Part shown: one piece after another, positions 34,082 through 41,251 of the stretch
Layout of the letters: every line of letters begins with the position of its first letter
How positions within the stretch are numbered: position 1 is the first letter of the stretch
Source of the DNA: Phreatobacter sp.
Lineage (GTDB): Bacteria; Pseudomonadota; Alphaproteobacteria; Rhizobiales; Phreatobacteraceae
Assembly (NCBI RefSeq): GCF_022843985.1
Contig: NZ_JALHMP010000034.1
Coordinates: forward strand, 1-46,162
Reading direction: 5' to 3'
DNA length: 46,162 nucleotides
Position numbers and translations under genes: made by a program
The notes under the pieces: generated by a model
What the model was told of the DNA's origin: nothing
What the model saw: the letters and a program-made list of their open reading frames with translations, nothing else
Databases searched by the model: none

Positions 34082-36778
<2,697 letters not shown>

Positions 36779-36815: not shown

Positions 36816-37901
36816 TCACGCCGCGAACTCGAAGGCTTCGAGGCCGGAGAGACGCAGCTTCGTCTCGATGGCCGGGATGGCGCGGGGCTTCACGCCCTTT
36901 ACCGCTTTCGCGATGGCAGCGATATGGTCGGGCGTCGAGCCGCAGCAGCCGCCGACGATATTGACGAGGCCGGCGGTCGCGAATTCACCGACCATGGTCG
37001 CCATGGCTTCCGGGCTCTCGTCGTAGAGGCCGAATTCATTGGGCAGGCCGGCATTGGGATAGGCGCAGACCAGCGTGTCGGCGACCTTGGCGAGCGCCTG
37101 GATATGGCCGCGCATCTCCTTGGCACCGAGCGCGCAGTTGAGCCCGATGGAGAAGGGCTTGGCGTGGCGCAGCGAGTACCAGAAGGCTTCCGGCGTCTGG
37201 CCCGACAGGGTGCGGCCCGACAGGTCGGTAATCGTGCCGGAGATCATCACCGGCAGCCGCAGGCCCTTCTCCTCGAAGACCTCCTCGATCGCCATCAGCG
37301 CCGCCTTGGCGTTCAGCGTATCGAAGATCGTCTCCACCAGCATGATGTCGGAACCACCGTCGATCAGGCCGCGCGCCTCGTCCGCATAGGCCTCGCGCAA
37401 CTGGTCGAAGGTGGTGGCGCGGTAGCCGGGATTGTTGACGTCCGGCGAGATCGAGGCGGTGCGGTTGGTCGGACCGAAGGCGCCGGCGACGAACCGGCGA
37501 CGGCCATCCTTGGCCTCGGCGCGCTTCGCCGCGTTCTTGGCAAGCCGGGCGCCCTCGTAATTGAGCTCGTAGGCGAGCTCTTCCATGCCGTAATCGGCCT
37601 GGGCGATGGAGGTGGAGGAGAAGGTATTGGTCTCGACCATGTCCGACCCCGCCTCGAAATATTCGAGATGGATCGCCTCGACCACGTCGGGACGGGTCAG
37701 GATCAGGAGATCGTTGTTGCCCTTCAGGTCATGGGTCCAGTGGGCGAAGCGCTCGCCGCGGAAATCCGCTTCCGAGAACTTGTAGCGCTGGATCATGGTG
37801 CCCATGGCGCCGTCGAGGATGAGGATTCGCTCGGCCGCAGCCTTGGTCAGGGCAGCAAGAATCTCGGCGCCGTCGGCATGGCGGTGGGGAAACTGGGTCA
37901 T
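36816..37901 (-). CDS. metH: Methionine synthase, homocysteine-binding subunit
   Basis: A 361-residue S-methyltransferase domain, the N-terminal quarter of a typical MetH. It shows [12 protein letters not shown], the zinc ligands in SIGLNCALG and [11 protein letters not shown], and the (beta-alpha)8 barrel features [10 protein letters not shown]. Start at ATG 37901 by comparison with the family; the frame is open to 38000. It lies 34 bases after metF and before the cobalamin-binding subunit. A MetH broken into two polypeptides at this linker is known from some alphaproteobacteria, so this is a natural split rather than a mutation. Confidence 0.92.
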
Positions 37902-37935
37902 AGGGAGAGCTCCCTCCGGAGAGAATCTGACTGGA

Positions 37936-38850
37936 TCACGCCGCCACCGCGCTCGGCGTGGCTTCCTTGGGCCGCATGCCCAGCAGGTGGCAGACCGCAT
38001 AGACGAGATCGGCGCGGTTCATCGTGTAGAAGTGGAATTCGGTGACACCACGGTCGACGAGGTCCAGCGCCTGTTCGGCGGCGACCGCAGCGGCGATCAG
38101 CTTGCGCGTCGCCGGGTCGTTTTCCAATCCCTCGAAGCGCCGGGCGAGCCAGTCGGGCACACTTGCCCCGGTCCGCGCGGCGAAGCCCGCCGTCTGCTTG
38201 AAATTCTGCACCGGCACGATGCCTGGCACGATCGGGATGGTGATCCCGGAGGCGCGGACACGGTCGAGGTAGCGCAGGTAGACGTCATTGTCGAAGAAGA
38301 ACTGGGTGATGGCCCGTGTCGCGCCGGCATCGACCTTGCGCTTCAGCATCTCGATGTCGGTGTCGAGCGAGGGGCTCTCGGGATGCCGCTCGGGATAGGC
38401 CGAGACCGAGACCTCGAAATCACCGATCGCCTTGATGCCGGCGACGAGCTCGGGCGAGCCCTCGTAACCGCCGGGATGGCTTTCGTATTTCGTGCCGACG
38501 CCGCCGACGGGGTCACCGCGCAGCGCCACGATATGGCGCACGCCGGCCGACCAGTAGTCGCGGATCACCTCGTCCACCTCGGACTTGGTCGCAGCGACGC
38601 AGGTCAGGTGCGCCGCCGGCTTGAGCACCGTGTCCCTGATGATGCGCGAGACGGTGGCGTGGGTCCGCTCGCGGGTCGAGCCGCCGGCACCATAGGTGAC
38701 CGAGACGAAGGAAGGCTCCAGCGGCGCGAGCCGCTCGACCGATTCCCACAGGGTGGTTTCCATCTCTTCCGTCTTCGGCGGGAAGAACTCGAAGGAGACC
38801 TTCAGGCGGGAGCGCGAGACATAGCGGCTGGGTTTGTAGGCGGAGGACAT
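37936..38850 (-). CDS. metF: 5,10-methylenetetrahydrofolate reductase
   Basis: A 304-residue FAD-dependent enzyme that makes 5-methyl-THF, the methyl donor for MetH. Key stretches: [39 protein letters not shown] and [10 protein letters not shown], all typical of MetF. ATG overlaps the stop of the upstream regulator (ATGA). Placement between regulator and MetH subunits links folate methyl supply to methionine regeneration. Confidence 0.95.
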
Positions 38851-39908
38851 CAGGCGACCTCGATGGCAGGTGCCGCCGGCAGGACCGGGGCGTCGTTGAC
38901 GATGCGTGGGTCGCGGCCGACCCAGATGGAGACGGTGAGCGTGTCACCGCCGGAATTGTCGGGCGCGAGGGTGGTGAAGCGGACCGGCGTCAGGCCGGCC
39001 GCAGCCATCCAGCCTTCGATCACGTCGCGGGCGAAACCGAGGCGGCGGTGCGCCTGGACCTCACGCAGGAATTCCTGTTCGTGCGGGGCGAAGTCCACCA
39101 CGACGAGGCGTCCGCCGGGGCGCAGCACACGTGCCGCCTCGCGGATGGCACGGGCACCGTCGTCGAGGAAATGCAGCACCTGGTGGATGATGACGCCGTC
39201 ATAGGCGTCGCGCGGCAGGGCGAGAGAATAGATGTCGCCGGTGCGCACGGAACAATGGCGGATCCCGGCGCGGTCGAGCGCCGCGCGCGCCAGGGTCAGC
39301 ATTTCCGGGCTGGCATCGATGCCGAGGCCGCGATCGATGTCGGGGGCGAAAAGCTCCAGCATCCGACCGGTGCCGGTGCCGAGGTCAAGCAACGAGCGCA
39401 GTTTCGTGCCGGACAGCGCGTCGCGCACGGCCTTCTCGACCCGCTCCTCGGGAACATGGAGGGCCCGAAGCCGCCCCCAGTCCGCGGCATGACGGCTGAA
39501 GAAGGCCTGCGCCTCGGCTGACCGCTTTGCGCGCACCGCGGCGAGTCGCTCGCGGTCGCTGGCAAGGATGGGATCACCCGGATCGACCAGTGCCGCTAGC
39601 GCAGCGACGGTGCGGGCGCCTGCCCCCTCGCCCGCGGCGCGAAAGAAGGCCCAGGAGCCTTCCTTGACCCGCTCGACAAGTGCTGCTTCCAGGAGGAGCT
39701 TGAGATGGCGTGAGATGCGCGGCTGCGACTGGCCGAGAATATCGACCATGTCAGTCACCGTCAGTTCGGCCTCCGCCAGCAGCGCGAGCAGTCGCAGCCG
39801 GGTCGGCTCGCCAACGGCACGCAGGACCGCCACGGCGCCGTCGAACGCATAGGCGGCCGCAGCGGCCCGAAGGGGTTTACCGAAGGACAGGGTCACAGGC
39901 TCACTCAC
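38850..39908 (-). CDS. ArsR-family regulator fused to a SAM-dependent methyltransferase domain (SahR-like)
   Basis: A 352-residue two-domain protein. Residues ~20-95 are an ArsR winged helix-turn-helix (GEPTRLRLLALLAEAELTVTDMVDILGQSQPRISRHLKLL). Residues ~140-340 are a class I methyltransferase fold with SAM-binding LLDLGTGTGRMLELFAP and later VLRPGGRLVVVDF. Such fusions occur upstream of methionine-cycle genes in alphaproteobacteria, and the SahR regulator, which responds to S-adenosylhomocysteine, is of this type. Start: GTG at 39908 (MSEPVTLSFGK), close to the predicted transcription start; GTG at 39896 is an alternative. It likely represses its own operon through the palindrome at 39911-39926. 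Confidence 0.82.
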   Translation of the reverse strand: MSEPVTLSFGKPLRAAAAAYAFDGAVAVLRAVGEPTRLRLLALLAEAELTVTDMVDILGQSQPRISRHLKLLLEAALVERVKEGSWAFFRAAGEGAGARTVAALAALVDPGDPILASDRERLAAVRAKRSAEAQAFFSRHAADWGRLRALHVPEERVEKAVRDALSGTKLRSLLDLGTGTGRMLELFAPDIDRGLGIDASPEMLTLARAALDRAGIRHCSVRTGDIYSLALPRDAYDGVIIHQVLHFLDDGARAIREAARVLRPGGRLVVVDFAPHEQEFLREVQAHRRLGFARDVIEGWMAAAGLTPVRFTTLAPDNSGGDTLTVSIWVGRDPRIVNDAPVLPAAPAIEVA

Positions 39909-39910
39909 AT

Positions 39911-39926
39911 ATAAAGATATCTTTAT
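39911..39926. promoter_or_regulatory. SahR-like operator over the methionine-operon promoter
   Basis: A perfect 16-bp palindrome, ATAAAGATATCTTTAT, starting two bases upstream of the regulator start codon. On the minus strand it overlaps a -10 candidate (TAAAGA, plus-strand 39920-39925) set 17 bases from a -35 candidate (TTGCCA, plus-strand 39943-39948). AAGATATCTT-type palindromes are the reported binding motif class of SahR regulators. Repression by blocking the -10 region is the likely mode. Confidence 0.72.
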
Positions 39927-39989
39927 GCCCGTTTGCCAGCCGTGGCAAGGGGCATTCGACGCGGCAAAATCGGCGACCACAAGCACCAT

Positions 39990-40004
39990 GTTCCTTTTTT
40001 GTTC
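39990..40004 (+). promoter_or_regulatory. Alphaproteobacterial LexA box (SOS operator)
   Basis: GTTC-CTTTTTT-GTTC is a perfect match to the GTTC-N7-GTTC operator of alphaproteobacterial LexA. It abuts a promoter candidate, TTGAGC (40005-40010), 17 bases, TAGCTC (40028-40033), whose start site would fall on the A of the radical-SAM ATG at 40040. LexA bound here would block the polymerase. Confidence 0.6.
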
Positions 40005-40039
40005 TTGAGCGACTACCGGCTCTCTGCTAGCTCTGAGCC

Positions 40040-41251
40040 ATGGCCCGTCCCCGCCCCTCACCGGTTCAAGACGATCTCGCCGCCCGCCTGAACGGCGGTG
40101 GAATGGAGGCTGCGGCGGCTCGCATCTTCGGCCTCGAAACCGCCAGCGCCCTCGATCTGTCGTCGGGCCCGGCGGTCGGCGAGGCCCGGCGGCGCGGGCG
40201 CGGCACGCTGACCAACGCCTCCGGGCGTTTCGAAAGGGAGCGCCGGGAGGCCATCGACGACGGGTGGGGATCTCTTGAGGAACTGCCCGCGCTCGCCACG
40301 ACGGTGACCGAGGAGAAGGCCAAGCGGATCATCACCCGCAACGATTCGCCCGATCTGTCCTTCGACCGGTCAATCAATCCCTACAGGGGCTGCGAGCACG
40401 GCTGCACCTACTGTTTCGCCCGCCCCACCCATGCCTATATGGGCCTCTCCCCCGGCCTCGATTTCGAGACGCGGCTGTTCGCCAAGCCCAACGCAGCGGA
40501 CCTCCTGGAAAAGGAACTGGCGGTGCCAGGCTACCAGCCGCGAACCATCGCGCTTGGCACCAATACCGACCCCTACCAGCCGATCGAGAAACAGTGGATG
40601 CTGACCCGGCGCATCCTCGATGTGCTGGAGGCGGCGAACCACCCGGTGGGGATCGTCACGAAGAGCCATCTCGTCACCCGCGACATCGACATTCTCGCCC
40701 GCATGGCGGCCAAGGGCCTCGCCAAGGTGGCGCTGTCGGTGACGACGCTCGACGGCAAGCTCGCCCGCTCGCTGGAGCCGCGCGCCGCGACCCCGGCGAA
40801 ACGGCTGGAGGCCATCCGCCTGCTGTCGGAAGCGGGGGTCCCGACGGCGGTTCTCGTCGCGCCGATCATCCCTGCCGTCAACGACGCCGAGATCGAGCGC
40901 ATCCTCGATGCGGCCTGGCACATGGGCGCCCGCGAGGCCGGCTATGTCCTCCTGCGCCTGCCGCACGAGATCCGCGACCTGTTCCGCGAATGGCTGGTGG
41001 CGAACCGGCCGGACGCGGCACGCCACGTCCTCTCCCTCGTCCAGCAGACCCGTGGCGGCAAGGATTACGACGCGACCTTCCACCTGCGGCAGAAGGGCAC
41101 GGGCCCTTTCGCCTGGATGATCGGCCGCCGGTTCGAGGTGGCGCGCGAACGCATCGGCTTCAACAAGCGGACACTGCGGCTGGACAGCGGGCATTTTACG
41201 CCCCCTGCCCGCAAGGGAGCGGCCGCTGCCGAGCAATTGTCGCTGTTGTGA
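40040..41251 (+). CDS. PA0069/Rv2578c-family radical SAM protein (SplB-like)
   Basis: A 403-residue radical-SAM enzyme. The [4Fe-4S] motif CEHGCTYC (CxxxCxxC) sits near residue ~118, preceded by SFDRSINPYRG and followed by YCFARPTHAYMGL, typical of the family. Related proteins (COG1533) are annotated as spore-photoproduct-lyase-like DNA repair proteins, though no activity is proven for this branch. ATG at 40040 has no Shine-Dalgarno and coincides with the predicted transcription start, suggesting a leaderless mRNA. The LexA box in front suggests induction by DNA damage. Followed after 11 bases by a VOC protein. Confidence 0.85.
   Translation: MARPRPSPVQDDLAARLNGGGMEAAAARIFGLETASALDLSSGPAVGEARRRGRGTLTNASGRFERERREAIDDGWGSLEELPALATTVTEEKAKRIITRNDSPDLSFDRSINPYRGCEHGCTYCFARPTHAYMGLSPGLDFETRLFAKPNAADLLEKELAVPGYQPRTIALGTNTDPYQPIEKQWMLTRRILDVLEAANHPVGIVTKSHLVTRDIDILARMAAKGLAKVALSVTTLDGKLARSLEPRAATPAKRLEAIRLLSEAGVPTAVLVAPIIPAVNDAEIERILDAAWHMGAREAGYVLLRLPHEIRDLFREWLVANRPDAARHVLSLVQQTRGGKDYDATFHLRQKGTGPFAWMIGRRFEVARERIGFNKRTLRLDSGHFTPPARKGAAAAEQLSLL

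Follow-up and report, generated by a model that had tools for sequence, protein, structure and literature searches.

The window analysed here is a stretch of 46,162 nucleotides from Phreatobacter sp., and near its right end a gene for a radical-SAM protein of the PA0069 family is divergent from a gene encoding an ArsR-type helix-turn-helix fused to a methyltransferase domain (Table 1). The intergenic region contains an exact GTTC-N7-GTTC sequence, as the first-pass annotation had reported, with half-sites at positions -50 and -39 relative to the start codon of the radical-SAM gene. Next to it we see the promoter-like arrangement that was also described there, in which TTGAGC is followed by 17 bases, TAGCTC, and six further bases to the ATG, with no Shine-Dalgarno sequence ahead of this ATG in the window. 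TTGAGC matches the consensus -35 at four of six positions and TAGCTC matches TATAAT at two of six, and a consensus scan of positions 39900–40110 finds no sigma-70-type promoter.

Table 1. Features of the radical-SAM gene, its upstream region and the divergent gene in the window
Feature	Position	Strand	Basis
Predicted LexA operator, GTTCCTTTTTTGTTC (GTTC, spacer CTTTTTT, GTTC)	39990..40004	+	Sequence, orthologue conservation, spacer model
-35-like element TTGAGC	40005..40010	+	Abuts operator; TTG kept in 12/12 genus members including window
-10-like element TAGCTC	40028..40033	+	Weak; TA kept in genus alignment; TAnnnT at same place in other orthologues
Start codon and putative leaderless transcript start	40040..40042	+	ATG in 12/12 genus members; orthologue geometry
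PA0069-family radical-SAM protein, 403 aa, CX3CX2C at residues 118–125	40040..41251	+	NF033668, PF04055
Perfect palindrome ATAAAGATATCTTTAT	39911..39926	.	In shared intergenic region, just before start of divergent gene
Divergent gene, ArsR-type helix-turn-helix fused to methyltransferase domain	about 38850–39908	-	Profile matches

The palindrome ATAAAGATATCTTTAT is present upstream of the radical-SAM gene in all 12 genus members (window included) and in 5 of the 78 named loci, and is found upstream of none of the 59 order and 66 class orthologues; it is probably an operator of the divergent gene, lying outside LexA control. The divergent gene presumably resembles that of the SAH-responsive regulator SahR. 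The open reading frames downstream of it read, from their translations only, like metF and metH, with methionine synthase apparently split into two (34082–36778 and 36816–38000, both on the minus strand).

The bare GTTC-N7-GTTC pattern occurs six times in the window against 0.97 expected, and at 109 sites genome-wide against 48 for the reversed pattern (30 against 8 when a T precedes the second half-site). As many of the 109 sites fall within genes, we treat this excess as weak evidence and not as proof. In shuffles of the 128-base stretch 39912–40039 a box arises in 0.35% of trials. A model of the spacer was built from eight boxes near lexA, recA, dnaE, YifB/comM (which we take to be two names for one protein) and ssb-uvrA, with the window's own box excluded, and scored 104 of the 109 genome sites, the other 5 being unlisted. 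The spacer of the window's box ranks second among the 104, behind only that of recA, and the two boxes differ at one base. The probability that a spacer drawn at random at 66% GC would fit the model equally well is 2.4e-5. Some plausible boxes fit it poorly, since one lexA box and one YifB box score below 0 when left out. The first-pass annotation had held the T-rich spacer against the site. Such a spacer is typical of the SOS boxes of this genome and therefore counts in favour of the site.

The genome encodes a LexA protein (TIGR00498, 184 bits where the cut-off is 110.95), whose own gene is closely preceded by two boxes. We surveyed the surroundings of selected boxes (T-ended ones, AT-rich ones and some others; 40 stretches in total) and scanned 20 neighbouring proteins; the SOS-type neighbours are lexA (two boxes), recA, dnaE (two), YifB/comM (two), ssb/uvrA, parC and the gene for a ligase-associated helicase. 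Boxes also adjoin genes that carry no SOS label, namely metK and those for a TonB receptor, a response regulator, an RNase T2-like protein and family-less proteins. Four other high-scoring T-rich boxes in this genome (L138, L143, L145 and L147) have neighbours that carry no obvious SOS annotation. They encode a response regulator, an RNase T2-like protein and proteins that belong to no NCBIfam family, and these neighbours are candidates for further SOS genes.

The strongest test of the site is its conservation in orthologues, on which the first-pass annotation had itself staked its reading. We scanned the 450 bases upstream of codon 58 of each orthologue, the order set consisting of 60 genomes from 60 genera with a match to the family (the first per taxonomic family, then additional genera), and dropped loci whose upstream sequence was missing (1 of 13 in the genus, 1 of 60 in the order, 2 of 68 in the class and 2 of 80 named loci). 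The box is found upstream of the gene in 57 of 59 order genera, 56 of 66 class genomes and 7 of 12 genus members (window included). Control spacers of 4–6 or 8–11 bases give counts of 0–3, and shuffles give 0.76 for the order and 0.68 for the class. Ten of the 12 order and class loci lacking the exact box have a one-mismatch form in the stretch, and two (L219 and L281) have none. We do not count two further sets as main evidence: all 30 of the further top-scoring order loci have the box, three of them being also in the order set, and so do 76 of the 78 named loci, which are mostly near relatives.

Outside the class we took 18 of the 26 genomes over the cut-off, one per genus. CTGT-N8-ACAG, the LexA motif of other Proteobacteria, lies upstream of the orthologue in 12 of these 18 genera against 0.08 expected, and the alphaproteobacterial box GTTC-N7-GTTC in none of them; CTGT-N8-ACAG is in turn found in none of 125 alphaproteobacterial upstream regions. 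Each group has its own predicted LexA-type motif preceding the same gene, and we regard it as highly probable that the PA0069-family gene of the window belongs to the SOS regulon, in line with the 2012 prediction for splB (PMC3323433).

The position of the box relative to the start codon provides further insight into the promoter. The box is on the coding strand in 111 orthologues of the order and class sets. In these, an ATG lies 38–42 bases from the box start in frame in 65 and off frame in 3, and 66 of the 111 have an open in-frame ATG 37–42 bases from the box start. When these 66 are aligned on the ATG, we see TAnnnT at -12 to -7 (T in 40, A in 44 and T in 45 of the 66), and 53 of them have a C at -1, which is the pattern expected if transcription starts at the A of the ATG. 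Shine-Dalgarno-like words occur in 7 of the 66, against a background of 6%. The box spacer frequently reads TTGnTTT, so that the -35 can sit inside the operator. The leaderless geometry is absent in 45 of the 111; 40 of these 45 have open in-frame ATGs, and in 21 of the 40 a Shine-Dalgarno sequence precedes one. This class-wide arrangement of box, -10 and ATG supports the prediction of a leaderless SOS promoter. It shares with leaderless sigma-70 promoters in general a -10 that ends six bases before the ATG and the lack of a Shine-Dalgarno sequence; unlike the plain form of such promoters, the -35 here is overlapped or directly adjoined by the operator of a repressor, and the 66 orthologues retain operator, promoter and start jointly. 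The leaderless promoter proposed in the first-pass annotation is supported by this class-wide geometry, despite the poor -10 of the window itself.

In the window 50 bases separate the ATG from the box start and 39 separate it from the second half-site; the predicted promoter has its usual location, and the operator lies 11 bases, or one half-site, upstream of where it is normally seen. An exact box in this upstream register is present in six complete genus genomes and one fragment, the window's own among them. The six complete genomes group as a single clade (support 98/94), which is nested within the remaining genus members. The five genus members without the exact box have GATC-N7-GTTC-N7-GATC (L035 and L037), GATC-N7-GTTC (L039 and L040) or, in the usual register, GTTC-N7-GATC (L041). 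We considered loss of control in this part of the genus and rejected it, as all five keep one-mismatch half-sites in two registers, which we therefore read as a slide of the operator, the direction of which we infer. A general design with three half-sites was also rejected, three exact half-sites being present in 1 of 56 order loci and in 0 of 55 class loci. In the single order locus (L188) the three exact half-sites (GTTC) are spaced 11 bases apart ahead of the orthologous gene. The series within the genus suggests a way for an operator to shift by one half-site with the promoter fixed.

It could be argued that two GTTC words happen to flank a run of T and have no function, as the pattern is so common in this genome and often intragenic, and as five of the 12 genus members lack it in exact form. 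We reject this reading as extremely improbable, because the box is conserved across order and class, because outside the class another LexA-type motif precedes the same gene, and because of the rank of the spacer. The first-pass annotation described the box and the layout of the promoter correctly and was overcautious on chance, and LexA control of the radical-SAM gene, as predicted from sequence, is close to certain. A different alternative accepts LexA control and supposes a leadered mRNA, or a translation start at Met22 (40103). This start is the choice of the gene finder, and the weak -10, the failure to find a consensus promoter and the orthologues without the leaderless geometry would fit it. 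However, the ATG at 40040 is kept in all 12 genus members (window included) and Met22 is CTG in L041, indels between this ATG and codon 58 within the genus are multiples of three, and 17 of 30 substitutions in codons 1–21 across three relatives fall at third positions (a fourth relative has no substitutions there). Together with the class-wide geometry these observations make a leader or a start at Met22 unlikely, and we consider a putative leaderless start at 40040 to be the likely arrangement in this genome.

The radical-SAM protein is a member of NF033668 (rSAM_PA0069; 542.4 bits against a cut-off of 360) and scores below the cut-off for the Rv2578c family NF038135 (221.9 bits against 430), so that the combined PA0069/Rv2578c assignment of the first-pass annotation stands in its first half but not in its second. 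Rv2578c belongs to the mycobacterial LexA regulon, which we do not use as evidence here. In sequence the window protein is no different from other members of NF033668, whose NCBI model type is 'hypoth_equivalog', and we know of no activity for the PA0069 family. Of 397 genomes sampled in the order to which the window belongs, 350 contain a family member that scores over the cut-off. Among named loci that are complete, the five closest show 84–98% identity, and three of these are MAGs labelled Phreatobacter.

A structure model of the protein (pLDDT 82.7, pTM 0.81) was used for a fold search of the PDB, in which ranks 1–6 are all spore photoproduct lyase (SPL; 4k9r, 4fhg, 4fhc, 4rh0, 4fhe and 4fhf), with E values of 3.8e-8 to 1.1e-6, TM scores of 0.46–0.54 by query and 0.54–0.63 by target, and 13–16% identity, followed by SkfB (2.3e-6) and NifB (5.5e-6). 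A single-protein sequence search found no solved relative, and a profile search for solved relatives gave five weak partial matches. The window protein shares with SPL the CX3CX2C motif and a tyrosine between the second and third cysteine. In an alignment of 51 proteins, from which loci with a match on the other strand or a late-starting match were left out, the cluster cysteines C118, C122 and C125 and also Tyr124 are kept in all 51. There is no conserved fourth cysteine in this alignment: the other columns have Cys in at most 13 of the 51, the window protein has none, and 19 of the 51 proteins have exactly three Cys in total. Immediately behind the third cluster cysteine, 40 of the proteins have Phe and 11 have Tyr. 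The window's residue there is Phe126, which corresponds to Y99 of B. subtilis SPL by motif position and not by superposition. SPL is described as using a fourth cysteine as hydrogen donor (Cys141 in the Bs, Cys140 in the Gt and Cys74 in the Ca enzyme) together with a tyrosine relay (PMC3742179, PMC5368176). As modelled, the protein resembles SPL in fold and fails two of its defining features, and the description 'SplB-like' in the first-pass annotation holds for the fold but not for the catalytic residues. As the hydrogen donor of SPL is missing, a photolyase label is premature, and with Phe at the relay position as well, the lesion or the quenching step should differ.

The most likely reading is that the gene encodes a predicted LexA-repressed DNA-repair enzyme for some lesion. 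We hold the DNA-repair role, which is predicted from regulation and fold, with moderate confidence. The enzyme might instead be SOS-controlled and act on a substrate other than a DNA lesion, such as RNA, a protein or a nucleotide; the missing SPL residues, the lack of a known activity with a 'hypoth_equivalog' model type, and the appearance of SkfB and NifB, radical-SAM enzymes with substrates other than DNA, directly behind SPL in the fold search would all suit this. It is somewhat unlikely, given that SPL entries hold the first six ranks and that SOS regulons consist mostly of DNA repair and tolerance genes. More doubtful still is true repair of the spore-photoproduct type with another hydrogen donor, for which one can cite the closeness of the SPL fold, the invariant Tyr124 and the description of the C. 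acetobutylicum SPL as having its cysteine located elsewhere (PMC5368176). Conserved cysteines are nevertheless confined to those of the cluster, Phe predominates at the relay position, and the spore photoproduct is described as mainly a lesion of spores (PMC3742179).

The operator and its conservation, the promoter and start geometry, the family and the missing residues, all established by computation, are consistent with a mechanism in which LexA would bind GTTC-N7-GTTC beside the -35 and keep RNA polymerase off. Following DNA damage RecA would be activated, LexA would cleave itself and the promoter would open. Transcription would then begin at the A of the ATG to give a leaderless mRNA, and the product would be a radical-SAM enzyme with the SPL fold, most likely acting on damaged DNA. 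LexA control, the leaderless start and the PA0069 assignment are probable when taken jointly.

SOS control of this family is prior knowledge that is repeated here on a larger sample. Control of splB was predicted for alpha- and beta-Proteobacteria in 2012 by Sanchez-Alberola and colleagues (PMC3323433), with the same claim of an SPL homologue gene behind class-specific LexA motifs, and a radical-SAM gene has been placed in the SOS networks of further phyla (PMC8565304, PMC7739468). The parts of PMC3323433 covered here do not discuss promoter geometry, a leaderless start, the subfamily or catalytic residues. A literature search combining 'leaderless' and 'splB' found no paper, the gene is unnamed in the titles among the matches listed for leaderless, LexA and SOS, and neither PMC12700426 nor PMC4211646, consulted for the orthologue among the Caulobacter SOS genes, mentions radical SAM, photolyase or splB in its main text. 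What is added here is the predicted leaderless block of operator, promoter and start, the shift of the operator by one half-site and the absence of the SPL relay.

The occurrence of two unrelated LexA-type motifs before the same gene in different classes is a stronger tie to DNA damage than the gene's annotation, and it raises the question of which lesion is acted on and how the product radical is quenched. The leaderless block predicts the mRNA 5' ends for the gene family to within a few bases. If the prediction is true, a leaderless mRNA would couple a radical-SAM protein to DNA damage, and may be translated when ordinary initiation is impaired. We suggest only tentatively that a compact LexA operator, -35, -10 and start block across the Alphaproteobacteria goes together with lesion reversal that dispenses with the Cys-Tyr relay of SPL; if so, this would be a second kind of radical-SAM DNA repair, one that reverses lesions in growing cells.
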